Of a DNA stretch of 64,000 bases, positions 33,375 through 64,000 are shown piece after piece. The stretch comes from Lamellibrachia columna (Eukaryota; Annelida; Polychaeta; Sabellida; Siboglinidae), in contig OY759261.1 in the NCBI GenBank assembly GCA_963662155.1, positions 62,620,917-62,684,916 of the forward strand, written 5' to 3'. Both the position numbers and the translations under genes were made by a program. The notes beneath the pieces were generated by a model that was given only the letters and a program-made list of their open reading frames with translations, was not told the origin of the DNA and ran no database searches. Positions within the stretch are counted from its first letter, which is position 1. Each line of letters opens with the position of its first letter.

Positions 33375-36115
33375 CACTGCTACGTAGAGTTACACACACA
33401 GTCGATGTCTCACTTACTCTTACTTCCTCCCTGTGTCTTCAGACACACAACATACCACTGCACTACGTAGAGCTACACCCCCGGTCAATGTCTTACTTAC
33501 TCTTACCCCCTCTGTGTGTCTTCAGACACACAAAGTAGATCTACACACCCGGTCCACGTCTCTCTTACTCTTACTTCCTCCCTATGTCTTCAGACACACA
33601 ACGTAGATCTACACACCCAGTCAACGTATCTCTTACTTTTACTCCCTCTCTGTGTCTTCAGACACACAACATGTAGAGCTACACACCCAGTCAACGTCTC
33701 ACTCACTTTTACTCCCTCTCTGTGTCATCAGACACACGCAATGTAGAGCTACACACCCAGTCAACGTCTCACTCACATTTACTCCCTCTTTGTGTCTTCA
33801 GACACACACAATGTAGAGCTACACACCCAGTCAACGTCTCACTCACTTTTACTCCCTCTCTGTGTCATCAGTCACACACAATGTAGAGCTACACACCCAG
33901 TCAACGTCTCTCTCACTCTTACTCCCTCTCTGTGTCACCAGACACACACAATGTAGAGCTACACACCCAGTCAACGTCTCTCTCACTCTTACTCGCGCTT
34001 TGTGTCTTCAGACACACACAATGTAGAGCTACACACCCAGTCAACGTCTCACTCACTTTTACTCCCTCTCTGTGTCACCAGACACACACAATGTAGAGCT
34101 ACACACCCAGTCAAAGTCTCACTCACTTTTACTCCCTCCCTGTATCTTCAGACACACACAATGTAGAGCTACACACCCAGTCAACGTCTCTCTCACTCTT
34201 ACTCCCTCCCTGTGTCTTCAGACAAACACAATGTAGAGCTACACAACCAGTCAACGTCTCACTCACTCTTACTCCCTCCCTGTGTCTTCAGACACACACA
34301 ATGTAGAGCTACACACCCAGTCAACGTCTCACTCACTTTTACTCCCTCTATGTGTCTTCAGACACACACAATGTAGAGCTACACACACAGTCAACGTCTC
34401 TCTCACTCTTACTCCCTCCCTGTGTCTTCAGACACACACAATGTAGAGCTACACACCCAGTCAACCTCTCACTCACTCTTACTCCCTCCCTGTGTCTTCA
34501 GACACACACAATGTTGAGCTACACACCCAGTCAACCTCTCACTCACTCTTACTCCCTCCCTGTGTCTTCAGACACACACAATGTAGAGCTACACACCCAG
34601 TCAACGTCTCTCTCACTCTTACTCACGATTTGTGTCTTCAGACACACACAATGTAGAGCTACACACCTAGTCAACGTCTCACTCACTTTTACTCCCTCTC
34701 TGTGTCACCAGACACACACAATGTAGAGCTACACACCCAGTCAAAGTCTCACTCACTTTTACTCCCTCTCTGATTCTTCAGACACACACAATGTAGAGCT
34801 ACACACCCAGTCAACGTCTCACTCATTTTTACTCCCTCCCTGTGTCTTCAGACACACACAACGTAGAGCTACACACCCAGTCAACGTCTCACTCACTCTT
34901 ACTCCCTCTCTGTGTCATCAGACACACACAATGTAGAGCTACACACCCAGTCCACGTCTCTCTCACTCTTACTCCCTCCCTGTGTCTTCAGACGCACACA
35001 ATGTAGAGCTACACACCCAGTCAACCTCTCACTCACTCTTACTCCCTCCATGTGTCATCAGACACACACAATGTAGAGCTACACACCCAGTCAACGTCTC
35101 TCTCACTCTTTCTCGCTCTTTGTGTCTTCAGATACACACAATGTAGGGCTACACACCCAGTCAACGTCTCACTCACTTTTACTCCCTCTCTGTGTCATCA
35201 GACACACACAATGTAGAGCTACACACCCAGTCAACGTCTCTCTCACTCTTTCTCGCTCTTTGTGTCTTCAGATACACACAATGTAGAGCTACACACCCAG
35301 TCAACGTCTCACTCACTTTTACTCCCTCTCTGAGTCTTCAGACACACACAATGTAGAGCTACACACCCAGTCAACGTCTCACTCACTTTTACTCCCTCTC
35401 TGATTCTTCAGACACACACAATGTAGAGCTACACACCCAGTCAACGTCTCACTCATTGTTACTCCCTCCCTGTGTCTTCAGACACACACAACGTAGAGCT
35501 ACACACCCAGTCAACGTCTCACTCACTCTTACTCCCTCTCTGTGTCATCAGACACACACACAATGTAGAGCTACACACCCAGTCAACGTCTCTCTCACTC
35601 TTACTCCCTCTCTGTGTCTTCAGACTCACAATGTAGAGCTACACACCCAGTCAACGTCTCTCTTTCTCTTAATCCCTCCCTGTGTCATCTGACACACAAC
35701 GTAGAGCTACACACCCGGTCAACGTCTCTCTCACTCTTACTCCATCCCAGTGTCTTCAAACACCCAACGTAGAACTACACACCCAATCAATGTATCTCTT
35801 TCTCTTAATCCCCCCCTGTGTCATCTGACACACAACGTAGAGCTACACACCCGGTCAACGTCTCCCTCACTCTTACTCCCTCCCTGTGTCTTCAAACACA
35901 CAATGTAGAGCTACACACCCAGTCAACATCTCTCTTTCTCTTAATCCCTCCCTGTGTCATCTGACACACAACGTAGAGCTACACACCCGGTCAACGTCTC
36001 TCTCACTCTTACTCCCTCCCTGTGTCTTCAGACACACAACTTAGAGCTACACACCCGGTCAACATCTCTCTTACTCTCACTCCCTCCCTGTGTCATCTGT
36101 CAACGTCTCCCTCCC
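33375..36115. repeat. 70-bp minisatellite array, about 39 units
   Basis: Long array of the unit containing CACACAATGTAGAGCTACAC and CAACGTCTCACTCACTTTTA. The period is 70 bp in most of the array because of one extra AC dinucleotide compared with the 68-bp units at the edges and in the other arrays. Higher-order similarity is visible among neighbouring units. Same orientation as the arrays at 15,290 and 22,790. Confidence 0.95.
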
Positions 36116-44026: not shown

Positions 44027-44130
44027 CTCACTGTTCTTCACAATTCGACACAACTTCTTCGGTGATCCAGCAACACAGACCAGCTTCAACGGTAACCATG
44101 GCCCAGGTGTAAGTTAACCAGACTACGAAG

Positions 44131-44730
44131 ATGGACTTGGGGGATCTAGAAAATCCGGAGGTAAGAAATGGTTTATATTCTATTTCTGATCATGTTGTTG
44201 TCAAGGCAATCGGGTTTAACTATGGTATAACTTACTCTGGCTGTTGCATCTGTCGAAAGCGGTTGACTGCCGACGTTGACGGACAGTATGTGTGTCCTTC
44301 GCACAAATTTAAGAAAAACCCGACACCTTGCTATAAGCTCCGTCTTTTGCTACACGACATCAGTTCAGATGCCGAATTGTGGTGTGTGTGTTTCCATGAC
44401 TTGACCACACGACTGATGGGTTTGAATGTTCGGGATTACGAATCCCTGTCAAACGAAGACGCTCAATATCACGCGTTAGACGGTCTTCGAGGTGCCATCA
44501 TGCGAGCGACCATCAGAAAATCGGTGTCTGCAAGTTACACCAACTTCGTCATGACAGATGGGGTAGTACTGTTTACTCAGAAAGACATGGAAACGTCCAC
44601 GGAAATGACAGACGACATCACGACAGTCGTCCCCGGCGAGGGCAGTTCCGAGCAGAAAGACATGGAAGCGGCTGTGGAAACAACAGGCAACATCAAGACA
44701 GTCGGTCGTGGTAAGGACAGCTCCGACTGA
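44131..44730 (+). CDS. RPA-like single-strand DNA-binding protein
   Basis: A 199-aa ORF. Residues 35-130 follow the pattern of the C-terminal OB-fold of the large RPA subunit (Rep_fac-A_C type): a zinc-ribbon pair C38-x2-C41 and C55-x2-H58, then a core CYKLRLLLHDISSDAELWC and the helix after CFHDLTTRLMG. The rest (145-199) is Thr/Glu/Asp-rich with an internal duplication (QKDMET... / QKDMEA...). Such a protein would coat single-stranded DNA during protein-primed replication. The ORF is intact. Its start ATG has good context, and a donor site at 44,160/44,161 means most of it is intron in the alternative spliced product. Assignment rests on motif pattern only. Confidence 0.6.
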   Translation: MDLGDLENPEVRNGLYSISDHVVVKAIGFNYGITYSGCCICRKRLTADVDGQYVCPSHKFKKNPTPCYKLRLLLHDISSDAELWCVCFHDLTTRLMGLNVRDYESLSNEDAQYHALDGLRGAIMRATIRKSVSASYTNFVMTDGVVLFTQKDMETSTEMTDDITTVVPGEGSSEQKDMEAAVETTGNIKTVGRGKDSSD

Positions 44731-46797: not shown

Positions 46798-46894
46798 CGC
46801 ACACACGCACGCCCCACCCCACCCGCGCGCTGCGCGGGTTATTTAACGACCGCACTCACGACTACTCTCTTTCAGTCGTAGACACGACTGCACC

Positions 46895-49800
46895 ATGCGG
46901 GTTCATCCCTGTCGTCACTGCGGAGAGGTGTCCGTTCGTATTCCGAATTACAACGTCACCTACGCATTCATGCTCCCCCCACGACACCTAGCGACCATTC
47001 GTACACTTCTACCGCAACTACACCGCCATCTAGCGATCTCGCAACACCTCCGACCAGGTATGTCTGTCCTAGCTGTGGAGTGTCTTTCGACAGACGAGAC
47101 AATATGCTTAGGCACGCGAGAACGGTATGTTCACGCCCCTCGGATAACGGTGTCTACGTTTGCGATGCATGTGGACGTTCGTTCGGCACACGACGCCATC
47201 TGGAAAGGCACAAGAGAACCGTACGATGTGACCCCGATCAACCTCCGTCACCAAAACGCTCGAGAACTATTCCTACCAGAACTATTCCTACCGAAGAAGT
47301 GTTGGTTGAAGACCCCGTGGAAACTCCAGAAGGAAATGATTCGTCACCAAAACGCTCGAGAACTATTCCTACCGAAGAAGTGTTGGTTGAAGACCCCGTG
47401 GACCCTCTAGAAGGAAATGATGTCTTGTCGGACGATTTGCAAGAAGTGGTTCATCAACACTGGGCGAGCATACGTACTTCAGTAGCGAGAGGACCCGTTC
47501 AGTCGAGGTATAACTATCGACTGACCACGCTGGACACGCGTGCTCTGGATGAGAGGCTGCGGCGAGTCTTTGAAGAACAGACCTGTTCGTTATTTGGAAG
47601 AGCCCAGCCTCGTTACAAACGCGGAAGACTTTGAAGCGTTTCTCGAACGTATCCGACTTCCCGATGTTTTGCAGTGGGTTATCGCTCAGCGACCGGACTC
47701 TGCTTGGGCCGCGGAGCTCGTGACGAACGCCACCTTCTTCATCAACCGCATCGTCGATCACCCGATCGGCTGCGTCAACTCAACCCTCCCCACCTACTTG
47801 AAACGTAACAAGGCCGTTATCACCCTGGAGAGGGACCCCCACAACAAAACGTACAACGACAATCTGTGTATATTTCGCTGTCTAGCTCTTCATAGAGGAT
47901 GCGATGTGCACCGATTGGAGCCGACCGTGTCGAAACTGTACACGGACTACGGTGAAGACGTGCCAATGCGCAACTTTGCGGGGATCACACTAGATGACCT
48001 CTTCCGCATAGAAACTACGTTTAAAACGAACATATTCGTACACACCCTCATGGAGGCAACAGACGGAAAGACGACGGCCGAACTCGTCAGACGATCGTTG
48101 TGTCAATATCCGGAAACGATGACGGTCAATTTACATGGGAGGCATTCCTCTTACGTTCAAAACGCACAGCAGTACACTCACTCGTACCGATGTCGAAAGT
48201 GTGGCGAGTCGTTGTGGAAACGACCGTATCTGCTGCAACGACACGAGCGTTCGTGTCAAGAACGTGTCAAGGTGTCCGACACGTGTACCCGGGCGGTGTG
48301 TATCATCCACCACCGTCGGTGTTTCAAAGACTGGACGACGAGGGTATTCGAGTCGCGGATGCACTGCGTTACTACCCGTACCGTGCAACATTTGATTTTG
48401 AATGTTACTTCGACAGCGCCGGACTGCCACCAAATAGCGACAAAGTCCAGTGGATTGCGCGGCACGTTCCCCTGAGCGTGAGCGTGGCGACAAACGTATC
48501 AGAACACGAGGAAGCTCGCTGTTATGTCACGGACGGGGATTCGGACACGTTAGTGGCGGCCATGATGACCGATTTGGAGGCTACAAGCAACGCCGCGTTC
48601 GACTTACTTAAACATCGATACGAACACGTGTTCGATTAGTTACGGGAATTGATTAAGAGTGGGATGAAGCGTTGAGAGAGGATACGGAGGAGGAGGCGGT
48701 GGGGGAGGAGGAGAAAACATTACTTCCAAACAACCATTACAGCGCATTGATGGAGCAGCTGTTAGCTTGGCTCCACCAAATGGTACGATCTAAACACTGA
48801 TAAACAGTTTCTGGTACCCTATCTTCTACTCAGTGATGGTAAAGAAATCGCCTCCTGTTTCGTTATCAATAGAAATAACACTTTCATGTGCTTGTCGACG
48901 ACTAAACTGAAATTCCTGGACATGATGAACTACCTTGCCCCGGGCTTCAGTTACGACAAGTACTTGAAAGCCTATGGATGTGACCTTAAAAAAGGTCACT
49001 TCCCCTACGAGTACATGGACGACGTTCGAAAGCTAGACGATTGCGCTCTCTCACCGAAGGAAGCGTTTCATAGCCGTTTGAAAAACGAGGGTATATCCAA
49101 CGAGGACTACGCCGAATGTGAAAGGGTGTGGCACGATAACGACATGACAACGATGCGTGATTTCTTGGTGTGGTATAATAACCGTGACGTGGTACCCTTT
49201 CTTGAATCCATTGGTAAACAGTTCGTCTTCTACGAGCGGCGAGGTATCGACCTGTTTAAAGATGGTATCAGCGTTCCCGGCCTGACACTTCTCTATCTGT
49301 TCAACGATTTACCACCGAAGACGTATTTCACTCTATTTAACGAGAAGCACAAAGACTTGCATCGCCTTGTCAAGGATGAAATCGTGGGTGGGCCTGCGAT
49401 AATATTCCATAGATATCACGAGAAAGATGTCACCAAGATAAGACAGAGTGACTTCGGAGAGACCGCCCGATTGTGCCGATCCATCGTAGGGTACGATGCT
49501 AACGCACTGTATCTATGGGCGTTGATGCAAGATATGCCGACCGGGTGGTACACGCATCGACGTGAACAAAACGCGTTCGGCGCAGTTGTACGGACAGATG
49601 GCCGTGGAATGGTTGACTTGGGAAGCCGCTAGAACAGGTTACATCATCCGACACCAGGTCAACCGTCGGGAGAAGCGAATAGGAAAACTCCCTGTCGACG
49701 GATGGTGCCAAGAAACAAGGACAGCCTATAAATTGCATGGGTGTTTCTTCCACGGATGTCCGTGTACTTGGGTAGAGATAAACCCCGTGAACGAAAAACC

Positions 49801-51202
49801 CCATGACACAACTTTTGACCGAAACACAAAAAAACACGGCGTACCTACGACGCTTTGTGAAGGTTGTCGAGATGTGGGAATGTGTGTGGAAAGAGACACG
49901 AAAAGAACCCACAGCGAAACTCTTTCTTGACACAGAGTCCCCTATCCGACGCGGCGTCAAATGGGAGCTCACGCAACAGCAGATAATAGCCACCGTGCGT
50001 GCCGGTACACTATTCGGACTGATCGAGTGCGACGTTCGTGTTCCGGAAGAACTACGTGCTCACTTCGCCGAGATGTTGCCCGTGTTCAAAAACACCACCG
50101 TAACACGCGACGACATCGGTCCCTTCATGCGTCAGTATGCCATAGACCACGATATATTGACAACCCCGAGACGCATGCTCGTGGGGAGTTATCACGGCGA
50201 CAAGATCCTGCTTGCTACCCCGCTTCTGCGATGGTACCTCTCCCACGGACTCGTCGTCGATCGCGTGTACCAGATCATTGAGTACGAACCGAACCCTTGC
50301 TTTCGTCAGTTCGGCGAGTCTGTATCAACAGCTCGTCGCGAGGGGGACTCTGACCCCCACAAAACCATCATAGCAGACACCATGAAACTGCTCGGGAACT
50401 CGGGATACGGTAAGACGGTTACCGACGTTGATCGGCACCGGAACGTCCAGTAATGTACGGATGTTGGGGCGTCGTCGCTTGTTAACAACCGACGTTTCCG
50501 TCAACTCGACGTCGTTGTCGACAACGCCTACGAGGTCGAGACGGACAAGAAAGTCGTTAAATACACGCTCCCTCACCACATAGGTTTCTTCGTCTATCAA
50601 TATGCAAAGTTGCGCTTGCTACAATTTTACTATGATTTCGTAGACAGGTACATAGAACGACCTCTGTATCAGTACTGTGAAATTGACACCGATTCGGCCT
50701 ACATCGCGTTGGCTGGTGACTGCCTCGAAGACCTCGTTTTCGCGGAGAAAAGGAAGCATTACTTCCAAAACCGAAAAGAATGGCTACCTTCGGAATGTTG
50801 TGGCAATCACTACGCCGACTACGTGAGCTGCCGACTTGCTGGTCACCCGTGGCTTACTTCCGCCTCGTGCGTAAAGCATACGACAAAAGGACTCCCGGTC
50901 TGTTTAAGGTAGAGTGGTGTGGTAGAGGGTTCATTGATCTCTGCAGCAAGACGTACTACTGTTTCGGGGCCACTGACAAGTACAGTACAAAGGGGTTAAG
51001 CAAGCGACACAACGAGATAGACAAGGACACGTTCCTCGACGTGCTCACCAAGCGGTGGAGCGGTCGTGGATGGAACCGAGGATTCCGAGTGAACCAGTCT
51101 TCCGTTTTGACGTATGTATAAGAGCGGGCGGCGCTCACATACTTCTACGGGAAGCGCGAGGTGCTCGCCGACGGTCTTAGCACGGCACCGTTGGATGTGT
51201 AA
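46895..51202 (+). pseudogene. polB: Protein-primed DNA polymerase B (broken)
   Basis: Replicative polymerase of the Polinton, homologous along its length in shifting frames. N-terminus: three C2H2 zinc fingers (e.g. YVCPSCGVSFDRRDNMLRH, YVCDACGRSFGTRRHLERH) and a tandemly duplicated SPKRSRTIPTEEVLVEDP segment. Then the conserved IVDHPIGCVN...LPTYLKRNKAVITL region, another finger, Exo I FDFECYF (about 48,390), palm motif A YDANALYLWAL (49,492), motif B KLLGNSGYGKT (50,386) and motif C YCEIDTDSAY (50,674); the end is GKREVLADGLSTAPLDV. Lesions: frame changes near 46,930, 47,580, 48,270, 49,585, 49,850 and 50,875; in-frame stops at 48,637, 50,451 and 51,119; the Exo II area (48,640-48,800) is degenerate. 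Catalytic motifs survive, but no full-length protein can be made. Confidence 0.93.
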
Positions 51203-51240
51203 AAGGGGGGTGCACTATAGAGACATGCTCAATCGTCTCG

Positions 51241-51873
51241 ATGGACTCGCGCTGGAAACACCCCTTTGCTTGTATCGTTGCCGGACCGACGGGGTGTGGT
51301 AAGACCACTTTCGTTGCACGTTTACTATGCTACGCGTCGTCTATGATCGATCCTCCACCAGAAACAATAATATGGTGTTACGGACAGTGGCAACCCGCAT
51401 ACGCGACGCTAAAGCAACAGGTACCCAATGTGTCGTTCGAAGAAGGCCTTCCGGACTCGTCGATGTTCGATCCCGCAACAAGAAACTTTGTGGTCATCGA
51501 CGACTTGATGGCGGAAACGGATGTTAGGGTCACGACGCTATTCACAAAAACGAGCCACCACGCTAACACGTCTGTTGTGTACCTGATCCAGAATCTGTTT
51601 CCTAAAAACAAAGAAAGTCGCACCACCAGTCTGAACGCGCAATACATGGTGCTTTTCAAGAACCCTCGCGACACGTCACAGATAACACACCTGGCCAAGC
51701 AGATATATCCAGGTCGAGTGAAATTCCTGCAAGAGTCGTTCCCAGATGCGACGACGATCCCGTATGGATACCTATTGATCGATCTGAAACAGGAAACACC
51801 CGAAGATCTACGCTTGCGTACGACTATCTTTCCTGACGATGTTATCCAATACGTCTACCTACCGAAGATATAA
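51241..51873 (+). CDS. DNA-packaging ATPase (FtsK/HerA, A32-like)
   Basis: An intact 210-aa ORF. Walker A GPTGCGKT is at residues 15-22, Walker B FVVIDD at 83-88 and a YLIQN sensor-type segment at 114-118. Size and order fit the Polinton packaging ATPase, which would pump genome DNA into the capsid. The start ATG follows the PolB stop by 38 bp. The stop codon lies inside the TATA box (TATAAAAAGG) of the next gene. Unlike PolB just upstream it carries no lesion. Confidence 0.92.
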   Translation: MDSRWKHPFACIVAGPTGCGKTTFVARLLCYASSMIDPPPETIIWCYGQWQPAYATLKQQVPNVSFEEGLPDSSMFDPATRNFVVIDDLMAETDVRVTTLFTKTSHHANTSVVYLIQNLFPKNKESRTTSLNAQYMVLFKNPRDTSQITHLAKQIYPGRVKFLQESFPDATTIPYGYLLIDLKQETPEDLRLRTTIFPDDVIQYVYLPKI

Positions 51874-51878
51874 AAAGG
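51869..51878 (+). promoter_or_regulatory. TATA box overlapping the ATPase stop
   Basis: TATAAAAAGG, 42 bp before the ATG at 51,911. This supports choosing 51,911 rather than the upstream in-frame ATG at 51,839, which would lie before the transcript start. Confidence 0.5.
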
Positions 51879-51910
51879 TTGGACACGTTGTCCCAGTCGT
51901 CATTAACGAA

Positions 51911-52249
51911 ATGTCGTCACCCGTGAAGAGACATATATTGTCTCTACAGTTTTTGAAAAAACACACGAACTCTAAACTTAGAAAGGCCATCCTCGAGAAC
52001 GCCGATAACGATTTGATTTGTACGCTCTGCGAGTGCGCGTGGAACATACTACAAGGAAACGTTCCGTTGACCGGGAAACAGAAGGCGCAGCTACGTAAGT
52101 ACAAGAAACACCTGCGCATATTGACCTCTAAGAAGGTGACCGCGGTAAAGCAGAGAACGATCCTACAAACAGACGGATTCCTATCGGCTTTGTTGGCGCC
52201 GTTGGGTGCGGTTCTTCTCCCGCTGCTCAGGGAGGTGATAGGGGGGTAG
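51911..52249 (+). CDS. Conserved small Polinton protein, 112 aa
   Basis: Begins MSSPVKRHILSLQFLKKHTN. A helical segment with paired Cys (LICTLCECAWNIL) and the NVPLTGKQKAQLRKYKKHLR block are followed by a C-terminal hydrophobic, Gly-containing tail (GFLSALLAPLGAVLLPLL). Polintons and adintoviruses commonly carry a small protein of this design, basic in the middle with a membrane-active-looking tail; its job is unproven, probably virion-associated. Intact. Its TAG stop touches the next ATG. Confidence 0.7.
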   Translation: MSSPVKRHILSLQFLKKHTNSKLRKAILENADNDLICTLCECAWNILQGNVPLTGKQKAQLRKYKKHLRILTSKKVTAVKQRTILQTDGFLSALLAPLGAVLLPLLREVIGG

Positions 52250-52512
52250 ATGGAGCACGCGAGGAAAATGGCGTTGGTGGACCCGCAGCTATTGGCCTCC
52301 CTTCGACCACCGACGGACACGACGGACAAGGTCTTGCGAGGACTCGACAACGAGATGCGCGTCGTTCTCGATCGAACGAACTTAGACGAAGGGGACAAGG
52401 TAAAGCTATACAATCAGATTTTGTTGCGTTATAACAGTATGGCCGACAGACGCCTAAAGCAACCTACGCGGGTCGTCGTGATTAAAGACGAAGGATCCGT
52501 GAAAGATAACGA

Positions 52513-52550
<38 letters not shown>

Positions 52551-52900
52551 CAGTGAACGTTGCAGCTAGTGGGTTGGAGTTTGAAATCGCGGACAGTGTT
52601 CCGAAAATCATGAAAACCAACGCTCTTTGTTTGGTGGATCGACTCAGAAACGACCCGGCTATTCAGTGGAACGACAGAGGTGAGTTGATTCACGAAGGCG
52701 TTGCTGTAGCCGGAAGCAACATCGAGGATCTCGTTCACGATATATTGCGAAAGCGGAAAACGAGTGTTCCGATAGGATGGCAAAAGTTTGCCCGGCAACT
52801 CAAACGCATCAACCTTCCGATGGAGTTGGTGGGTAACCCCGATCGTAGGCAGTACATACAGCAGGCAGCGTCGTCGCCGACGTGGACCTCCCGCGTTTGA
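52250..52900 (+). CDS. Conserved Polinton protein, 216 aa, function unknown
   Basis: Starts directly after the previous stop. Contains KVKLYNQILLRYNSMADRR (residues 51-68), a 10-residue polyalanine run (90-99) from a GCA/CAG trinucleotide tract at 52,516-52,546, and a C-terminal domain with GSNIEDLVHDILRKRKTS and GWQKFARQLKRINLP. The C-terminal domain is a recurrent Polinton signature of unknown function. After about 52,870 a neighbouring frame stays open for some 45 codons (RRRRGPPAFDFDDEWIV), so the natural C-terminus may have been lost to a small frameshift. Confidence 0.7.
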
Positions 52901-53002
52901 CTTCGACGACGAGTGGATCGTTCGTCAACGTCCGGAAGTCGTCAACCGCTCTGGGAATCCTTTTAAACACGCGTCGCACCAAGACGACGGTACAGTCACA
53001 CC

Positions 53003-53206
53003 ATGACCACCGCAGAGTGTCGATCGCTCGTCGTCATAGCCTTACTCGTGTGTATCATATTCTATGTAGCCGCACTTATTTTGAAAGATAGTTTTAGCTT
53101 GCCCTTGGCCTGGTGTGGTGGCCGTCTGGTTGTAGGACGCAACAACACGACAACGCCGCAATGGGACGCCGCCGCCGTCGACCCGTCAACAAATCGGAAT
53201 TACTGA
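53003..53206 (+). CDS. Small membrane protein, 67 aa
   Basis: One hydrophobic helix at residues 8-28 (SLVVIALLVCIIFYVAALIL) followed by a short polar tail. TTTAAA at 52,961 could be its TATA box. The last 46 nt overlap the integrase start in another frame. Product unrecognised. Confidence 0.5.
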   Translation: MTTAECRSLVVIALLVCIIFYVAALILKDSFSLPLAWCGGRLVVGRNNTTTPQWDAAAVDPSTNRNY

Positions 53207-54251
53207 GACGTCGCTACTTTGACACGAAACGCGTCGGGAGTTATGGCGGTGTCGAAGCGTTGCGAAGTGTCTCGCGCGTGCCGGTAAAAACCGTCAAGAA
53301 ATGGCTGTCGGAACAGGACGCCTACACTCTTCATAAACCGATAAGGACAAAATTCAAGCGGCGATGCGTCGTAGTGGGAGGACCACACCAGCAGTGGCAA
53401 GCCGATCTCGTCGACGTATCGAACCTGAAAAAAAGACAACCACGGAATCACGTTTTTGCTTACCGTAATCGATGTGTTTTCCAAGTGGGCGTGGTGTGTT
53501 CCGCTGAGGAACAAATCGGTGTCGTCGTTGGTGACGGCGTTTACAGATTTATTATCTGACGTCACGCCTATGACGCTGCAAACCGACAAATGACTGGAAT
53601 TTCGAAATCGTTCTTTTCAAAACTTGTTGAGGGAGCACGGCGTCCACCATTTCGCGACGCACAACGAAGAAACCAAGGCGAGCATCGTCGAAAGGTTTAA
53701 TCGAACGCTGAAGACACGCATGTGGAGGTACTTTACGAAACATCAGACGGTGAGATACCTGGATACGTTGCCTGACTTTTTGCACTCATACAACAACACT
53801 TACCACCGAACTCTAGGCATGGCACCTTCGCAGGTGAACGAGTCGAATCAGGAGATCGTGTGGCAGCGTTTGTATGGCCAAGACGGTGGGGGTAAACAAA
53901 AAGTTTACGGTTGGTGATCGTGTACTCATAAGCAAAGCAAAGCGATAGTTCAAGAAAGGTTATATGGCGAATTGGAGCGAGGAACTGGTCACGATTACCG
54001 ATGCACATCGCTAGGACCCACCCGTGTACAGATTGGTCGATGAGCACGGGGAGATACTGGAAGGATCCTTTTACGAACCGGAACTACAGAAAGTATCGGT
54101 ACCGAAGGACAAACTGTACCGTATCGAAACGGTTTTGCGGCGGCGAAAGGTGGGAAAAGGTACAGAAGTCTTCGTGAAATGGTATGGTTACCCCTCACCA
54201 TTCAACAGTTGGATCGACTCCAAAGCACTTGTCCCGTACTTATGCATGTGA
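53161..54251 (+). pseudogene. Integrase with chromodomain (broken)
   Basis: Retroviral-type DDE integrase that would insert the element. From ATG 53,161: basic N-terminus, SYGGVEALR, then QWQADLVDVS with the first catalytic Asp. The frame changes near 53,445 and continues as FLLTVIDVFSKWAW, then LQTDK (second Asp), an in-frame TGA at 53,591, then NEETKASIVERFNRTLKTRM with the catalytic Glu and HSYNNTYHRTLGMAPSQV. A further frame change near 53,890 and in-frame TAGs at 53,946 and 54,012 precede an intact chromodomain (YRIETVLRRRKVGKGTEVFV, W-Y-G-Y, W-I-D), ending at 54,251. All three acidic residues survive but the gene is dead. Confidence 0.92.
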
Positions 54252-54272
54252 CACGATGTCGGCTCGGTAGTC

Positions 54273-54425
54273 ATGACTGTACTTTTCGTAGGAGCGGCGG
54301 CGGTAGCGTGTTTTTTGCTGTATAGTTGGTGGTACGAACAACCACGACGACGCATCTCCGATCGTAGCACCCGCTGTCGCCTGTCGCGCTGGCCGTCGCA
54401 ACCTCGTCGATGGGACTCGTATTAA
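54273..54425 (+). CDS. Small membrane ORF, 50 aa
   Basis: ATG 54,273 to TAA 54,425. An N-terminal hydrophobic helix (TVLFVGAAAVACFLLYSWW) is followed by an Arg-rich tail ending RRWDSY. It fills the gap between integrase and the next gene exactly, as in compact viral genomes. No homology recognised. Confidence 0.4.
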   Translation: MTVLFVGAAAVACFLLYSWWYEQPRRRISDRSTRCRLSRWPSQPRRWDSY

Positions 54426-54432
54426 ACAGGCG

Positions 54433-54440
54433 TATAAAAG
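54433..54440 (+). promoter_or_regulatory. TATA box before the 108-aa ORF
   Basis: TATAAAAG abuts the first ATG at 54,441. A transcript starting about 30 bp downstream would use the second ATG at 54,474 instead. Confidence 0.45.
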
Positions 54441-54767
54441 ATGGATGCACGGTCTAGTGCCGGCAGTCGGGAAATGACGACGATCCACGACGTCGCACGT
54501 GCCGACTTCGAAGGGAACGTAACGGACGCACGTGACGACGACGACAGTGCAAGTACTGGATCGCGTTGGCATCTCTTCGGTACTGATTGTCCCAAATCGG
54601 AAATAGTGTTCCTGTGTCAAGTGTTCGTCTTGTACACGGTCATCGTGGTAAGTATTTATAATCTGACTTTCGGTCACACTAACTCTAACCTGTGGACCGC
54701 ATTGTTGAGTAGTTCACTGGGTTACCTACTGCCCAATCCGTCTATGCAAAAGAACGATGGCGTCTGA
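54441..54767 (+). CDS. Conserved Polinton membrane protein, 97-108 aa
   Basis: After an acidic N-terminal part, residues 54-73 (EIVFLCQVFVLYTVIVVSIY) form a transmembrane helix, and SNLWTALLSSSLGYLLPNP (82-100) is a second hydrophobic segment. The SSSLGYLLPNP ending is characteristic of a small protein found next to the penton gene in many Polintons. The start may be 54,474 (residue 12) given the TATA box at 54,433. It overlaps the next gene by 11 nt. Intact. Confidence 0.7.
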   Translation: MDARSSAGSREMTTIHDVARADFEGNVTDARDDDDSASTGSRWHLFGTDCPKSEIVFLCQVFVLYTVIVVSIYNLTFGHTNSNLWTALLSSSLGYLLPNPSMQKNDGV

Positions 54768-55560
54768 TTTTTACCTGGTTCTACCCAGTAACTCATCGAT
54801 GCACCTACACCCCAACAACACGTTGACGAACTACGTCACTATGCTACCGCGACGCATTAGTCTCTCCGCCGAGTGGGAATGTGGGCTAGTGGAAATCAAC
54901 TACCCACACAACTGGTTCAACGTCCGAGAAAAAGATGGCGTCTTTACTATCCAACCGGAAACGGGTAGGTTGGACGAATACGGTGTCAGTCGTGATTGTT
55001 ATCGTACTTTCATCGACGCTAGTTATTACGATAACCCCGACACACTCTTCCGAGCAATCAATAAAAAGTTGATTATGTCTCCTAAGTCAAAGAAAAACCG
55101 AGTGAAACTGAGTTACAGCAACATCTCTCAGAAGGCGACCGTGCACTTATCACCTAACACTAAGTTGACCATGACCGAGGATATGGGACACATGCTCGGG
55201 TTTCCGAGTGCCGTCCTTAGTAGTCCGACTAGGACCTACTCTTTCAAGCCATTCGAATTACGATCCGTGGTGGATTTGAACCAGGGTCTGGAATCGCTTT
55301 ACGTCTACTCGAGCGTTGTGGAGCCGCGTATTGTCGGAAATAGTGTTGTGCCTCTGTTGAGGATCGTTCCCATAACAGGTAAGCAAGGACAGGTGGTTTC
55401 GACTCATTTCGACAACGTGCACTACTTGCCCTTGTTGGGGAAGGAGTTCGGTAACGTCGAGATTGATATAAGAGACGACACCGGACGTCCCGTACCATTC
55501 GAACGTGGAAAGGTAACAGTGACGCTTCACTTTCGACGCCGCAAGAATGGACTCTTTTGA
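54757..55560 (+). CDS. Minor capsid (penton-like, single jelly-roll) protein
   Basis: Intact 267-aa ORF. The N-terminus FYLVLPSNSSMHLHPNNTLT and the LPRRISLSAEWECGLVEINY segment are hallmarks of the Polinton minor capsid protein, which forms the capsid vertices. Other parts: MLGFPSAVL, a YVYSSVVEPRIVGNSVVPLL core strand pair and the C-terminal strand KVTVTLHFRRR. Length fits the family. The neighbour order (membrane protein, penton, pVI-like, MCP, protease) is also typical. Confidence 0.9.
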   Translation: MASDFYLVLPSNSSMHLHPNNTLTNYVTMLPRRISLSAEWECGLVEINYPHNWFNVREKDGVFTIQPETGRLDEYGVSRDCYRTFIDASYYDNPDTLFRAINKKLIMSPKSKKNRVKLSYSNISQKATVHLSPNTKLTMTEDMGHMLGFPSAVLSSPTRTYSFKPFELRSVVDLNQGLESLYVYSSVVEPRIVGNSVVPLLRIVPITGKQGQVVSTHFDNVHYLPLLGKEFGNVEIDIRDDTGRPVPFERGKVTVTLHFRRRKNGLF

Positions 55561-55563
55561 AGA

Positions 55564-55971
55564 ATGAACTACAACGACTACTACACCCGACAGGTGGGAG
55601 GGGCACTGCCTTACTTTGTCGGTGCTAGAGTACAGAGAGGACATGGACTGGGTAGTTTGTTTGGAGGTTTGCTCCGAAGCGTTGCCCCACTCATCAGGCG
55701 AGGTGCGATAGCTCTAGGTAAAAGGGCTCTGAGGACTGGTATGCAAATCGCCGATGACGTCATATCAGGCCAGAACGTTAAACAAGCGGCGAAACGACGG
55801 GCGACCGACGCGGGAAAAGACTTGGTACGTAGTCTCTTGGTTTCCACCGGACCACCCCCGAGGAAACGACAACGACCTATAAAACGAGCTACTACGGTAC
55901 GACCAACCAGTCTTGCGAAACGACGTCGTAAAGGGCAGACATCGCGCCCATGCGATCTTTTCGATGCTTAA
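55564..55971 (+). CDS. Basic pVI/pX-like virion protein, 135 aa
   Basis: Starts 3 nt after the penton stop. N-terminus MNYNDYYTRQVGGALPYFVG, then a Gly-rich amphipathic region (GHGLGSLFGGLLRSVAPLIR) and the IADDVISGQNVKQAAKRRAT helix, ending in strongly basic clusters (PRKRQRPIKR, AKRRRK). Adintoviruses and Polintons encode such a protein next to the capsid genes; by analogy with adenovirus pVI it is thought to be a protease-processed, membrane-lytic or DNA-binding core protein. The VGGA and FGGL sites resemble adenain cleavage sites. Intact. Confidence 0.75.
   Translation: MNYNDYYTRQVGGALPYFVGARVQRGHGLGSLFGGLLRSVAPLIRRGAIALGKRALRTGMQIADDVISGQNVKQAAKRRATDAGKDLVRSLLVSTGPPPRKRQRPIKRATTVRPTSLAKRRRKGQTSRPCDLFDA
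55878..55885 (+). promoter_or_regulatory. TATA-like box before the MCP gene
   Basis: TATAAAAC, 95 bp upstream of the major capsid ATG at 55,973. Confidence 0.35.
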
Positions 55972-55972
55972 C

Positions 55973-57217
55973 ATGGCTTTCGTGCATCGACAATCTTGCG
56001 AGGGTGTCAAGAGCGAGCAGGATATATTCAGTGTACCACCGACAGTAACCAGCATCGAAACCGGACAATGGGTGGAACACCAACCGACGGCGTCCCTCGA
56101 TTCGGGTGGTCCCATAGAATTCTTACTACCCGGATCGGGAGACACCTACTTGGATTTGGCCAATACCTACCTCTTCGTGCGAGCGAAGGTGACCAAGGGA
56201 AACGGCACGGATCTCGACACGGACAGCCCGTCTACTTGAACGACACGCTCGTGACGCCTTCGACCAATACGTATCCGTTTCGCGCCTACATGGAAACGGC
56301 GCTAAGTTACGGAACCGAGGCCAAGGAGTCGCAACTGACGAGTCAACTGTGCTACAAGGATACCGCCGGGCGTATGGAGAGCGTCGAGATCGCCGACGAA
56401 GCTGTGATGAATGCGGGGTTGATCAGTCGACGAAAGTACACCACGCAGAGTCGCGTAGTCGAAATGATGGGGCGACTGCACGTGGACCTGTTCCTGCAAG
56501 GCCGTTTCCTACTCAATGGTGTCGACGTCAAGATACGGCTGATGAGAAGCAAGGACGCGTTCGCACTCACGGCCGAAGGAGACAACCCCACCTACAAAGC
56601 ACACATCGTTGACGCCAGCATTTTAGCAAGAAAGGCCACCCTGAGTCCCGCCGTACAGATGGCCCACATCAAGGCACTCGAGAAAGGCACAGCCAAGTAC
56701 CCAATGCGTCACATCGACTGCAAAGTGTACTCGATACCACAGGGCGCCATGTCGCACACGCACGAAAACCTATTCCTCGGCACTCTTCCTAAACGTCTCG
56801 TGCCGTGCTTTCAACGGGTCGTATGCTAAAAACCCGTTCAACGCCAAGCACAACGCCATAAACTTCCTTGCCGTCTATGTGGACGATCGACAGGTGCCCG
56901 CGAAACCCCTCCAGCCGAACTTTGCCGAGGGACTTTACGTTCGGAGTTACACGAACTTGCGCCACGGCAAAGTGGCGCAAGACGAAGGGAACGGTCTGAC
57001 ACGCGCCGACTTTGGCAACGGATACACCTTCTTCGGATTTGACCTGACCCCGGACGCCTGTGACGGGTCGTGCTTCCATCTGATACAGAAGGGCAACTTG
57101 CGCGTCGAAATCCACTTCGCCGCAGCGCTCGAGCAGACGGTGAATGTCGTCGCGTACGGCGAGTTCGAGGCGGTGTTGGAAATCGACAAGAACAGGAACG
57201 TCATCTTGGACTACTGA
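55973..57217 (+). pseudogene. Major capsid protein (double jelly-roll; broken)
   Basis: From ATG 55,973 the frame reads MAFVHRQSCEGVKSEQDIFS and DTYLDLANTYLFVRAKVTKG, then closes at 56,237. The next part continues in another frame (LNDTLVTPSTNTYPFRAYME, IVDASILARKATLSP) to 56,827, and the last third (AFNGSYAKNPFNAKHNAINF, QVPAKPLQPNF, GNGYTFFGFDLTPD) returns to the first frame and ends at 57,217. This is the hexon-like capsid protein of Polintons. At the first break (about 56,225) a short conserved stretch expected between KGNGTDL and LNDTL is missing; the second break is near 56,805. The TGA overlaps the protease ATG. Confidence 0.92.
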
Positions 57218-57675
57218 TGGATTCGGACCAGATCAAACGACTGCTGGCGCTCGACACGCGGACCAACGCTGTCGTCTATGACGTTGTCGCCAAAGACAGA
57301 CTTCGTACCACGATCGGCGCTTATCCAACGGCCTTCGTATGCAACACTCACGACGCTAATCGACCCTGTCAACACTGGATCGTCCTCTACACCGAGGATG
57401 GCCACGGCGAATACTTCGATTCGTACGGGTTACCACCGCTGCACACAGCGTTCGTCGAGTTTCTGAACGATAGTTGTGTGGAGTGGACCTACAACAAAAA
57501 GACACTTCAGAGTCCTCTTTCTAACGTATACGGACAATAATGCGTCGCTTTCTTGCTGTTTCGCTGTCGCAATGTACCTATGACGACTTTTACGAATATG
57601 TTTGGAACTGATTTGGTCGCTAACGATTGCCGGGTGTTTGAATGGCTGAAGAGCTTGAGGGACGGCAAAATGTAA
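57217..57675 (+). pseudogene. Adenain-like cysteine protease (one nonsense codon)
   Basis: Virion maturation protease. Residues H53 (CQHWIVLY), D68 (GEYFDSYG) and Q107 (NVYGQ) match the adenain catalytic set. An in-frame TAA (57,538-57,540) interrupts the frame immediately after Q107, and the very next codon begins CVAFLLFRCR, which carries the catalytic Cys. The frame then stays open to TAA at 57,673. One point change therefore removes the nucleophile and the C-terminal 44 residues. The ATG overlaps the capsid stop (TGATG). Confidence 0.88.
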
Positions 57676-58505: not shown

Positions 58506-59403
58506 GTGCAGTTATGTTCAGTATATACCCCAATATCGGGTGATCTAACAAAGTTAAAGTATTATGTATATATATTCATAAATACACGAAATACTTGGTT
58601 TATGGCAATAGTTTGATAATACTAGTTACTTGTTACGCTTATTCACTCCCTCGATTTCTATCTTCAATATTTTTTACGGTTTGTGCTTCTCTGAGCGTCC
58701 TCTTTTCTTTTTCCCAGATGGTTACCACTACTACGCCTGCATTGGTGTTCTTTTTGTCAGCATTCTAATGAGATGGCCCACATACCTACATCTTCTTGCC
58801 AATAGTGTTGACTTGCTTAGCTCTGCATTTGCTCTTTTAATAATTGAGAACTTACTCGTTGTTGATGAACTCATTCCATTTGATGTTCAAACGTTTTCGT
58901 TCAATTGTTTTGGTGTTTTCCATATTTTCAGAGTAGCTTGGGTAAAACCTTGTTGTATTATGTGTTTTTAATATGCTGCATGCACGTCGCGGATTTCGGT
59001 GGGACTCGCTCATAGTTGGCGCAGTCCAGAGGCGGGCCGCAGATTCACAATCATCGTGAAGAGAAGTAACGCAACCACAACAACCACAACAACAACAACA
59101 ACCACAACCACAGCAACGAAGTCAAGTGGAATAATATAGGAAAATTGTAATATTCCAAAAAAATTATCCAGAACAATTCCAGGTAACAACACTAGTAATA
59201 AACTTATCCCAATTACTGCTAACGATTTACACTGTCACCTAGGTTATCGATATCACACGCTGCAATAGAGTACTTCCTTCCGCCTGATTACCACTGTAGT
59301 TAAGTACATGACAGATAAACTATGGATAACATAGAATTACCCAAATGATATGTAAAGTTCATGATGCACATATTGTTTAGGTCCGTCAGCAATATCTCCT
59401 ACG
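58506..59403. other. Flank: LINE-E remnant, otherwise no gene
   Basis: 58,655-58,835 is a diverged copy of the LINE-E tail; on the minus strand it reads RRCRYVGHLIRM and GKKKRGRSEKHK. A CAA-rich tract lies at 59,074-59,118. Nothing else is supported. Confidence 0.5.
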
Positions 59404-59862
59404 AATGTCAAATGTTAATCACTCCGGCCACACTCGGCCGTCTCATCAACGTTCGTCTATTTCCTATGCGTGTGTGGATTCTCGGCGGGTTGAGCAGCGA
59501 CTAGAAACCGTCACGTCTAGCAGCCTTGATGTGGGACGTCCCTCCATCTGTCCGGGTCGATTGATATTCGTGTCGCGGTTTGCTGGTGCGATTACGGTTG
59601 CTCCGCCGACGATCAACAGTATCGATGTCTCGGGCCATGCAGGTCCCGTTTCGCTGAGCCGACTCTCGCAGGTATAATCGTAGATTTGTATCTACGTGGC
59701 CAGACTCGGCAGGGATCTCGCGTCGTTATGTCACGACGGCGTAAAGCAAACACAGGAACTGTCGTCTCTCGGCATAACGTATCTTGCCTGGCTCGCTCGT
59801 ACGTCGAACTTTCGAGGTCGACGATGCTTGCGTTTTGACAACTAGTAAATACCCCCCCCCCC
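59404..59862. other. GC-rich island with open frames, unassigned
   Basis: A distinctly GC- and CpG-rich stretch in AT-rich surroundings. The plus strand has a 90-codon frame (59,405-59,677). On the minus strand one frame contains DYTCESRLSETGP and SILLIVGG, which look like the end of an Ig domain, but an in-frame TAG precedes it. It could be a decayed exon, a CpG island or neither. Confidence 0.3.
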
Positions 59863-61122
59863 CGCTTAACCAGTTCTCAGTGTCTCGTTTTTAAACAGTG
59901 AAACATACATTAACGAATAATTGCATAAATGCGACAATGCAATAAGGTGAGTATATGCAAACATGACATACAATAAATTGTTAAAGGAAGTTAACGTCAT
60001 TATTCTCCTGAAAGGTATAATTTATGCATTTAATAAATATTCGAAAAATACCATGATGTGTTTAAAGTAGTAATGTTATGCATCGACATGACGAAAATGA
60101 GAGAAATTTCAAAGGCATGTGAAAACATAGTTGTTGATCAAGTTCACAAGTTGAATTCCAACAAATCATAATCGTACGAACTTTCATGCATTGATGAAAC
60201 GTGTTTACCGACATGTACATTGACGAGTATAGAACTTTCTCTGTTATCGAAAACCAATATCCCGCTTATTCTGGGAACCATTTTTAGTTTGCATTTACAA
60301 CATTACCCAGATGTTAGATTTAAATATTGGTACGTGAGCGACACATCGATTGAGTGCCTTGTGCAGTCGCTGACTGAAAGTCACGAAGAACAGATGTCCG
60401 TAGGCAATGTCGTCATATGTTTTGTTATTTTGTGGAAACAATGCCAATGTGGACCTAATGTTATGCCCAACTATGGCTAACATATGACCGATACGCGAAC
60501 AAACTTCTTTAATTGTCCAGTATGGGGCTACGAGTCCAATCTAAAAATAATTTCATCTTATATTACATGTAATACACAACGGAAACTTCATTTTACAATG
60601 TTATATAATTGTATAAGCATACACTAATAACACTTCCTTGTAGTTGTCTATAAGGAGGTGTGTGACACATAGCTATGTAGCTAACTAATATATCCCGCTA
60701 TGCAAACAATTAAGCAAAAATCGTAGATCAGAAAAATGTACAATTTCTCCGGATAAGTGTAAACACATTTCAAAGATCAATTTGTATTTGGCATGTGCAT
60801 CTACGGTAGTCAACCAAGAATGCGCGTGATATTCCATTTTGCCTGGATACCCCGAAATGCCCGGGTTTCCCCCACGATTGAACAATAACACAACACTATA
60901 ATCATCATTATCATAAGTAGTATGTTGGTGATGGTGACCTCAACTTTGTTCAGGCCAATGTTGGCCCACGTCTAGTTCATTGTGGTGACATTGGTTTAAT
61001 GACCATAAGGTTCTTGCCGATTATCATATAGAAATATACATCGACTGTTACATTACACAATAAGTGCAAAACGTTGTGCTGACGTCACAATGACCCGTTA
61101 GTCGGATCCCGCTTCTTCGACA
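59863..61122. other. No gene seen
   Basis: AT-rich; presumably the 3' flank or UTR of the minus-strand receptor gene. I found no clear AATAAA close to its stop. Confidence 0.4.
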
Positions 61123-62098
61123 TCAACCAATCGTCTCGTACACCTGTTCATCGTTACCCGAGAGAGTATCGTACACATTTTGCACGTTGCTTGTGGTATT
61201 CTCGAACTGATGTTCTCCGTTGAATGTAATAGTTTCATACACATGTTCCTCTTTGATTGTAGTATTGTCGTCGACGTTCTCCACGTTACCCGTTGGTAGA
61301 CTGCTCTGTCGTCTTCTAATAAATATACACGAGTAATAAAAGCATACATTGTATGTTCCATGATTCTCTTAATTGTGGGTTCGACGTAGATACATGGTCT
61401 GTTGAATCAGCAACATCGGGTAATGTATTTAACATCCTCTAAAAGTATGGATTTTACGCAGTACAATTATTACAACTCAAATAAATAATAACTTACTAGG
61501 AAAGTGTGCGTTACGTTATCCGAGAGAAACTGCGTATTATTTACATTGGTAATATGCGTGATGATGCGAAATATAATTGCGAAAGTAAGGAAACTACAAC
61601 CTGGTTGTTTATGTACATGATCGACAATGAAATATTATTATAATTCTTCTGCAACGGGCAGTTCTTCGAGGAGCATTTAATTATTTATTGTGTCAGAGTT
61701 ACATAACCTATAAATATGGACCTGGATGGTAAACTAAAAAGGAAACTTAGTAAAGGAGATGTTGGTCACGACGAAAGCATCCAAGGTCAGGACTGTAGGG
61801 ATTGCTATGTATGTCATATTCAAACTGACCTGCTCACGACAAACAGAGTGACGACGAGGAACAAGACCGCTCCGACCACACCGAGGAGAATAAACAGGTT
61901 ACGTCTCTTCCACGGATTGTTCGGCTGCTGTAGTGTTGCCTTCGTGTCCCCGATCGTAGTTGTTGCGGTCAGTTGAGGTGGGTCCGGCGTTGCTAGAGGA
62001 AATACAATGATGCTATTGATCCATGTATAATGATAATATACCTTGGTTTCGGTAAACTAACATATCTTAATACCCTATGCATTTGCTAAAAAAACTTG

Positions 62099-62150
<52 letters not shown>

Positions 62151-62169
62151 CCAAATACGAAGCGCTAGC

Positions 62170-62252
<83 letters not shown>

Positions 62253-64000
62253 CGTAAGATAAGAAACTATGTTAACGTAAGATAAGAAACTATGTTTTAT
62301 TTGCATCACGAATTAAACGTGTCTCACCGAGCTTGGGTCGGTGAGACACGGTGAGTATTATTATATAAGTGTCTGAATGTCTGAAGAAATTTAAAACATT
62401 GATATATCCGTTTACAGGAATACACGATTAGATTTTTTACGTTACAATGACAACCACTATATGAAATACATAATGTTCGAGTAGTAATAAGCTTATTTGA
62501 TTGATTGATTTCAGTGTAGGCGCCTACCTTAAATTATCAGTGTTATACATCATGTTTAATCGTTATTGATGTAGTATGTATAACATCAGGAATTGAATAG
62601 AACAGGACATTGACGGACTAATAAAGTATCCGTTATTGTATGTTTCGCCTTCAAAAATAAATATTTATTGGTCGGACTTTATATCCAGTAAAGCGGCATC
62701 TATATTATCTAAAACTTGCACATTTAAATTTATCGCCAAATCATATATTTTTAAATATTAAGATGTAAAAGATCAGGAGAGTAAAACATTTTGTGTGGAT
62801 ATTATTTTTAGCCAACCGAGATGTTATCAATACTAATCCGTTCAGTATTAAATTGTCCCGTAATACAATCATTCGATTAACCAATAAAAATCGCCGTACC
62901 TTTTAATGGTCAGAGCGACACAACAATGCGTCTTTATATCGTTACCTCGTTGCTTTTACTCTTTATTCCAAAAAAAAATCAGAAATAATGTAGATAATAA
63001 CTGTTAGATACACCCCAAATCGATCAGTACATTTTCCTGTGTCTAAGAAATATGCAGATGTTTGTATATCGGTAGTAAAACGTTGGTGGGGAGCGATAGC
63101 GTAGTGGTTAAATATATCTCAATCGAGAAAACCCGGGTTCGAATCCTCTTGCTGCCGTTTCAAAACTTTCTCAATTTCGTTCACCCAACGTTGTTGCAGT
63201 TCACTCGGCTGTATAGATGAATACCTGGTTACAGAGAGAGGTGGATGTATGAATGAATAGTCTTCGCGCAGTAATTGCAGTGAGGCTGAATGCTTCACAG
63301 AGAGGTCGAGATGGCGTTGGAATATACCTGCATACCTGCATACATACACGGTTGTTTGTCGTGTCTGTGGTTACGTGACTTAAGCTCTGCGCCTGCTATA
63401 CAGCCGCCACGCAGAAAGTTCAGAATGATCCATGGTATATGACAAAGACAGTTTAAATAGATTGACCATTAATGTTTGTATTCGTCTGAGAAATCATAGA
63501 GGCTGACAAAATAGGCCGTCCGCGTTGGCCAAACACAGCGCTCATCTCGGATATTGCTACGCGTTATTAAATGGTGAAGTCGGTAAGAAGAACTAAGCAA
63601 AACAATTAATCTATTATGAACCGTCAAACAAACAACTTATTAATTACTCGAACGTAACGTAAGTGAAAAGAAGAATGGAAGAACGAACGAATGAATCGAC
63701 ACTTCTGATACCTTAGATACTTGCTCAGACTGCATCCTAAATTAATTGACAGCATTAACTTCTCACCTGGTGTAAATTCTGCTGGTCGCATTTTCATCGT
63801 TGCTGTCTTTAACGATCCGTAGAACCCCGTCCACGTGGACCACATAACTCCACTGTACTTCTTAACACGTTCGCCTTCCTGGTAATAGTGTCCGTTCAGG
63901 TTTGACAAGCTACAATATCCGTACCACCACGCTCCGAGAAATAGGCTTGAACAGGAAAAGTAAGACGTATCGTGATCCGCGTCTTTAGTACTGAATTGCA
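61123..64000 (-). CDS. Transmembrane fibrinogen-domain receptor with ITAM tail (3' part)
   Basis: Three minus-strand exons. 64,000-63,767 (5' partial): C-terminal part of a fibrinogen-related domain with the calcium-site [22 protein letters not shown] (Cys pair 13 apart) and [10 protein letters not shown], ending MKMRP; donor CCAG|GTGAGA, phase 1. 61,992-61,830: stalk ([20 protein letters not shown]), basic NPWKRR and a helix [20 protein letters not shown]; donor AG|GTCAGT, phase 2; acceptor CCTCTAG. 61,315-61,123: cytoplasmic tail of 63 residues; acceptor TTTATTAG, stop TGA 61,125-61,123. The tail has VYETI, VYDTL and VYETI; the last two form YDTL-x7-YETI, a canonical ITAM. Both junction phases match, so 195 residues read continuously. 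FReDs bind glycans or acetylated ligands; the ITAM implies SH2-kinase signalling. The N-terminal part lies beyond the window. Confidence 0.9.
62101..62250. repeat. Two (TA)n tracts in the receptor intron
   Basis: (TA)n at 62,101-62,148 and 62,170-62,250, followed by a 23-bp direct repeat (AACGTAAGATAAGAAACTAT unit, 62,251-62,296). Confidence 0.95.
62318..62350. repeat. Perfect 13-bp hairpin in the receptor intron
   Basis: CGTGTCTCACCGA (62,318-62,330) and its exact complement (62,338-62,350) with loop GCTTGGG. Confidence 0.8.
63088..63157 (+). mobile_element. tRNA-derived SINE head
   Basis: Box A TAGCGTAGTGG (63,097-63,107) and a perfect box B GGTTCGAATCC (63,136-63,146) at tRNA spacing. 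The acceptor stem does not pair, so this is a SINE head rather than a functional tRNA. It lies in the first visible intron of the receptor gene, antisense to it. Confidence 0.6.

Follow-up and report, generated by a model that had tools for sequence, protein, structure and literature searches.

The window analysed here, a stretch of 64,000 nucleotides of the Lamellibrachia columna genome (C1:62620917-62684916), carries at its end three minus-strand exons that, by a splice-site reading, join at 63767/61992 and 61830/61315 into a single 195-aa frame. The first (63767-64000), only part of which lies inside the window, is the C-terminal exon of a fibrinogen-related domain (FReD), as indicated by Pfam and structure matches, and ends in phase 1 at the donor CAG/GTGAGA. 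Intron 1 (61993-63766), a GT-AG intron with the acceptor CCTCTAG/C, consists of FReD-gene-type DNA down to position 62281. It is followed by the exon for the stalk and the transmembrane (TM) helix (61830-61992), which begins ATPDPPQ and is entered in phase 1 and left in phase 2; by intron 2 (61316-61829; GT-AG, donor CAG/GTCAGT, acceptor TTATTAG/A, phase 2), delimited by its splice sites and by alignment to relatives; and by the cytoplasmic tail exon (61123-61315), assigned by frame and homology, with the stop codon TGA at 61123-61125. A candidate polyadenylation signal, ATTAAA, recognized by motif alone, lies at 60995-61000 on the same strand. After the FReD, the frame encodes in order a Thr/Pro stalk, KRR, a hydrophobic TM helix and SRRR; the tail that follows contains YETI, YDTL and a second YETI. 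The initial annotation had described three phase-matched exons with a stalk, KRR, a helix and a tyrosine tail; both junctions, the phases (1, then 2) and all these elements, including three YxxPhi motifs, were reproduced.

Other elements occur elsewhere in the window. A plus-strand run of ORFs at 46882-57540 resembles a Polinton/Maverick- or adintovirus-type element, with a C2H2 zinc finger, a DNA_pol_B_2-like ORF (9.8e-05, below the cut-off) and an Adeno_IVa2-like packaging ATPase (3.2e-07). Of the six ORFs scanned in this run, three matched no Pfam family; pieces resembling a capsid and a protease were recognized by eye alone, and some ORFs overlap in two frames. Another plus-strand ORF (44113-44727) matches Rep_fac-A_C (4.5e-07), an RPA-type OB-fold protein. 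A family of 68-70-bp minisatellites is present at 33467-36094, 14378-14731, 15284-15773 and 22794-23325, with 37.8 copies in one array.

The FReD ectodomain and its paralogs

Residues 1-72 of the frame match the Pfam family Fibrinogen_C (PF00147) at 2.4e-17, with 63.9 bits against a cut-off of 22; since the match spans positions 150-220 of a profile of 221, the window holds the end of the FReD alone. Two further Pfam matches, PRIMA1 and TM_ErbB1, were both below their cut-offs. At E<=0.001 the FReD part matches 68 different sequences of solved structure, best of all angiopoietin-2 (5.3e-19); the alignment to it includes both Cys and the three Asp around the Ca-site, in support of the earlier description of a FReD end with its Ca-site and Cys pair. 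The structure matches include 4m7f, a structure of the FIBCD1 FReD. A protein search with the FReD exon returned just two candidates, none at E<=0.0001, and FReD relatives could therefore not be ranked from it.

The 5' part of the gene was traced by comparison with a tandem paralog, here called B, whose FReD-C exon is identical to that of the window at 77 of 77 residues. In paralog B, a signal-peptide-like exon (MSWGAAKSKSVKAQWCLLATLLMICRVKSQ) precedes three FReD exons: an N-terminal one (FReD-N) in matching phase 1, one in the middle, and FReD-C. Its signal-peptide-like exon was located by a scan for hydrophobicity and donor sites, with no dedicated predictor; in the motif scan 5' of its middle exon one pattern matched nothing, and a wider pattern applied to more DNA succeeded. 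The FReD-N exon of the window gene was found at C1:62701664-62701789, 81% identical and with intact splice sites. Its middle FReD exon falls in an unreadable stretch and is expected there from the collinearity of the readable flanks with B. The initial annotation had proposed an upstream extension to a signal peptide and Ig or EGF domains. The extension reached the FReD-N exon, gave no indication of an Ig or EGF exon, and yielded no convincing signal-peptide exon in about 10 kb 5' of the FReD-N exon; a weak candidate from a relaxed scan lay inside an intron of paralog B and was not accepted. Since the signal-peptide-like exon of B leads directly to its FReD-N exon in phase, the window gene probably has one FReD as its whole ectodomain, with no Ig or EGF domains.

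At least 154 Fibrinogen_C matches were counted in this genome, though the Paraescarpia paper, in the passages seen, describes no expansion of lectins in vestimentiferans and includes FREPs in an expression figure. FReD exons cluster at C1:62.1-62.7 Mb and C3:24-26 Mb. With 150 of 183 candidates scored, at least 26 matches to the FReD-C exon of B were obtained, and seven fall within C1:62.1-62.7 Mb; among the matches listed, only that of the window lies near a match to the TM module.

Relatives of the transmembrane module and the recombination junction

With the 195-aa frame as query, the sole protein match at E<=0.001 among 325 candidates was LSAT2_015207 (P0001), a hypothetical protein of the siboglinid tubeworm Lamellibrachia satsuma. 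It is identical to the stalk, TM helix and tail of the window at 97 of 134 residues (72%), the alignment beginning three residues ahead of the window TM-exon boundary. LSAT2_015207 shares with the window gene the stalk, the TM helix and the tyrosine-repeat tail; it differs in having a signal-peptide-like start (judged by eye) and two F5/8C domains ahead of them, with no FReD, YETV in place of the window YETI, and five tyrosine units. When its tail was used as query, it matched itself alone among 854 candidates.

The L. columna genome (880 Mb in 30 contigs) was then searched with the 118-aa module, giving at least 19 matches at E<=1 (52 candidates scored). Strong TM-exon matches, at 8.2e-22 or better, were the window itself and C1:68672470 (c68672), C1:68644033 (c68644) and C1:68616218 (c68616); weak ones (0.003-0.18) lie at C7:44988034, C1:68599145 and C1:68635225. 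The closest tail copy in this genome shares 96% identity with P0001 over 75 aa; this and the single protein match to Lamellibrachia led to a mollusc origin of the DNA being rejected. Of the six TM exons outside the window, five are preceded on the same strand by F5/8C exons, and the sixth (c68616) has an intact TM-tail and a long run of N upstream, with no readable ectodomain. A broken copy of the tail exon, with a stop and a truncation, occurs in the F5/8C cluster at C1:68629285-68629434 and represents a dead module. In both F5/8C genes read at base level, the TM exon is likewise preceded by a phase-1 intron. The window thus has the homologous stalk-TM-tail exon pair with phase-1 entry that marks the F5/8C-TM-tail family; tblastn with P0001 (E<=1e-3) found no F5/8C domain in the window or in the readable part of 40 kb upstream, and in its place a FReD stands upstream. 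The window copy is the only TM exon known to follow a FReD. Independent support for the TM exon and for the 61830/61315 junction comes from P0001, which aligns across both exons at 72%, and from three copies elsewhere in the genome whose splice sites and reading frames are intact. The FReD-to-TM join at 63767/61992 is a splice predicted from the DNA.

The origin of the two halves can be read from their flanks. From 62281 to 64000 the DNA is common with FReD paralogs: it is 97.4% identical to B, 27 kb away, over 62593-64000, 94.3% identical to paralog L046 over 62281-64000, and 78-90% identical to paralog L045 over 62281-63016, 63015-63089 and 63190-63999. From 59120 to 62014 the homology is with the F5/8C-TM-tail receptor genes at C1:68.6 Mb, over their 3' end and flank (blastn pieces, 69-87%), and it ends about 20 bases ahead of the TM exon. 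Beyond 62281, where the window diverges, L046 and L045 remain alike for about 340 bases; the F5/8C copies still match one another past 62014, where the window is only 45-46% identical over the next 106 bases. As both families run on and the window leaves them, the locus is a recombinant of a FReD gene and the 3' end of an F5/8C receptor gene. As far as the DNA goes, the chimera is real and unusual. This amends the initial account of the receptor: its TM-tail module is that of an F5/8C receptor family, and recombination linked it to a FReD gene.

The junction lies within the interval of about 266 bases between the two homologies (62014-62281), which contains an AT microsatellite of 151 bases (62101-62251). 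The coincidence of this repeat with the switch in homology raises the question of an assembly mis-join. Such an error is very improbable, since both flanks are diverged, separate loci and not copies of the sequences that they resemble (the FReD side by about 0.4-14%, depending on the bin, from B or L046, the receptor side by about 18-19% in intron and flank), and the contig is chromosome-sized (72.7 Mb).

Constraint and age of the fusion

A more substantial alternative is that the two halves are accidental neighbours, an orphaned F5/8C 3' remnant beside a FReD gene that has another 3' exon or an incomplete 5' part, with no fused mRNA. Two observations speak for this: no convincing signal-peptide exon was found for the window copy, and a dead tail copy exists in the F5/8C cluster. 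B and L045 keep the donor used in the window, and B, L045 and L046 show no copy of the TM module in the DNA read or among the genome matches listed, so that a different 3' exon is likely in FReD genes of this group. A scan for hydrophobic exons found no TM exon downstream of L045 (6.4 kb) or of a further paralog, L044 (1.7 kb), only an AT-repeat frame in 12 kb downstream of B, and at L046 one hydrophobic open frame dissimilar to the TM module. Readthrough into intron 1 as the real end of these genes (47 aa and a stop in the window copy, B and L045) was also considered and rejected, as the changes look intron-like by eye. Against accidental neighbours, both halves are intact, phase-matched, on one strand and 1.8 kb apart, the TM exon is under constraint, and the junction appears to predate homogenisation of the tract beside it; this alternative is considered unlikely.

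The constraint is seen in comparisons with the F5/8C relatives. The TM exon is 94.5% identical to c68644 and 92.0% to c68616, with intron 2 at 82% and 81%, respectively; against c68644 the differences are 9/163 in the TM exon and 82/445 in intron 2 (Fisher p=3e-5). The tail exon (27/193 differences to c68644) is not significantly more conserved than intron 2 (82/445; p=0.21). Gaps in the module exons are of 6 and 33 nt only, whereas seven of the 12 gaps in intron 2 are not multiples of three. The dN/dS values of the window against three relatives are 0.73, 0.61 and 0.40, and the FReD exon compared with L045 gives pS 0.235 and pN 0.033. The probability of an intact module given a neutral window branch is 0.03, or 0.07 and 0.13 with lower rates, values that are not decisive and that favour retention without proof. 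Part of the constraint on the TM-tail may date from before the fusion.

As to age, the bases next to the junction (62281-62440) differ by 14.4% from L046 and by 12.5% from L045, and the next bin by 4-5% (23/160 against 6/152 differences to L046, p=0.0016); the junction thus seems older than the homogenisation of the FReD half. The FReD-N region of the window gene differs by 18-22% from B, and on the receptor side intron 2 and the 3' flank differ by 18-19% from relatives. The simplest reading is that the fusion is old and that its FReD half was later homogenised with paralogs. A very recent fusion, as the 97% likeness of the window copy and B would have it, was set aside on the divergence (12.5-14.4%) of the 160 junction-side bases, a short stretch. 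Taken with the constraint on the TM exon, this older divergence suggests that the fusion has been retained.

The tyrosine tail and the proposed receptor

The tail is an 11-residue repeat whose unit number varies among copies in 33-nt steps. Relatives have tyrosines at residues 27, 38, 49 and 60, plus 71 in three of the four; the window tail is made up of four units, with Y, F, Y and Y in turn. Its first YETI (61228-61239, minus strand), unpaired by ITAM spacing, and its second stand where relatives have YEST and YETV, and it has FENT where three of the four relatives have YENT, c68672 being without that unit. YENT is a pYxN adaptor-type site. The second YETI closes an ITAM-spaced pair, YDTL-x7-YETI (61129-61173, minus strand). 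In the tail after the TM helix, the strict pattern YxxL/I-x6-8-YxxL/I is present in the window and in none of the four relatives; all four carry YDTL-x7-YETV, which fits once V is allowed, and YDTL-x7-YET[IV] is found in all five sequences compared (window, three own-genome copies and P0001). The acidic residue three positions before the first Tyr is absent, with Gln instead, and the pattern with D/E is unmatched in the tail. The ITAM pattern appeared in 261 of 200,000 shuffles of the window tail, a figure that overstates the case because the tail is a repeat. In a separate observation, a 33-bp minisatellite at C10:31.787-31.792 Mb (L020, L022, L025 and L026) has an open frame of 1093 aa, mostly (VYDTTDGNVVT)n, with an 11-aa period and a VYDT core like the receptor tail; as a relative of the tail (E 0.02-0.65) it was set aside as a probable satellite.

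Direct ITAM signalling, as claimed at first, agrees with the strict pair in the window and is weakened by the V in the second motif of all four relatives; since the strict L/I spacing is specific to the window copy, ITAM/Syk signalling is put forward as a hypothesis. Its main rival keeps the same fused receptor and takes the tyrosines as YxxPhi endocytic signals, or as single SH2 or adaptor docking sites, of a receptor for uptake or scavenging. The YxxPhi pattern fits each of the three window motifs, the strict ITAM is not conserved, the spacing may simply follow from the 33-nt repeat length, and the YENT of relatives would suit an adaptor. The retention of YDTL-x7-YET[IV] in every sequence and the Tyr-Tyr distance of 11 residues, which is that of an ITAM, speak against this reading, which is judged rather unlikely.

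The preferred explanation, in which the window gene encodes an exon-shuffled, single-pass type I receptor with FReD, TM helix and signalling tail, is the best available as a whole and is held with middling confidence. Weighing against it are the failure to find a convincing signal-peptide exon, the unreadable middle FReD exon, the weak conservation of the tail exon relative to intron 2, the dN/dS values of 0.40-0.73, the intact c68616 copy with its unreadable ectodomain, and the strict ITAM absent from all four relatives. Recombination in an intron (62014-62281) brought a tandem-cluster FReD gene together with the 3' end of an F5/8C receptor gene; phase 1 was preserved, and the FReD exons would for that reason splice to the stalk-TM exon and on to the tyrosine-repeat tail. 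One mRNA would then give a surface protein with one FReD outside, a Thr/Pro stalk, a TM helix and a short tail. Known FReDs bind acetylated or sialylated glycans. Binding of a glycan or acetyl-group ligand might cluster the receptor, upon which a Src-type kinase could phosphorylate YDTL and YETI and SH2 proteins could bind, most likely a tandem-SH2 kinase of the Syk type, possibly in immune or symbiont-contact cells. The cell-surface immunoreceptor proposed initially finds support in the FReD, TM exon and tail, in phase and in type I order, and the window gene is probably a FReD receptor with an ITAM-like tail. In the portions seen of a published survey, Syk-type kinases occur only in invertebrates also having CARD-CC/Bcl10, annelids are among the Bcl10 bearers, and conserved ITAM-type upstream receptors are inferred (PMC5978004); a single Syk-like gene in invertebrates is described elsewhere (PMC10253181, in part).

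No FReD-TM-ITAM receptor was found in print among the matches listed (titles, abstract openings and passages), which agrees with the earlier claim of an undescribed architecture. FIBCD1 is a type II protein, with its TM helix ahead of the FReD and no known ITAM. It is a membrane FReD lectin, as the window gene would be, but in the window the TM exon is 3' of the FReD. Draper/MEGF10 and FcgammaRIIA are single-chain ITAM receptors that drive phagocytosis; they share this layout and have EGF or Ig ectodomains where the window gene has a FReD. Among lophotrochozoans, CgIgIT2 of Crassostrea gigas is a single-pass receptor with an ITAM in the same chain that signals through ERK and so provides a precedent for single-chain ITAM signalling; by its description in the passages of a review, it has five Ig domains outside and no FReD is mentioned (PMC11999971). 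Mollusc FREPs, sFReDs and FReMs are likewise FReD lectins of clustered multigene families, but the FReD classes of Biomphalaria in the passages seen are FBG alone, EGF+FBG and IgSF+FBG, with no class bearing a TM helix and tyrosine tail (PMC7588048, PMC10903818). Diverse FREP transcripts are reported for Olavius in part of the source; the terms searched were unmatched in the portions of the Riftia paper, as were fibrinogen, FREP and discoidin in those of the Osedax/Vestimentifera paper.

By the fusion a lectin of the secreted type would become a receptor at the cell surface, and the locus indicates that a single recombination event can give a lectin gene the anchor and signalling tail of a receptor; members of both parental families persist on this chromosome and are open to comparison. 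In an animal that depends on a bacterial symbiont, the window gene and the related F5/8C genes stand as concrete candidates for the ITAM-type upstream receptors inferred in the survey. A broader and speculative idea, to which we give low credence, is a mix-and-match system in vestimentiferan tubeworms, in which one TM-tyrosine-repeat module is exon-shuffled onto F5/8C domains or FReDs, the unit number varies and the lectin halves are gene-converted. If true, it would be an annelid counterpart of the paired or NK-type receptors and might take part in recognition of the endosymbiont on which these gutless animals depend.
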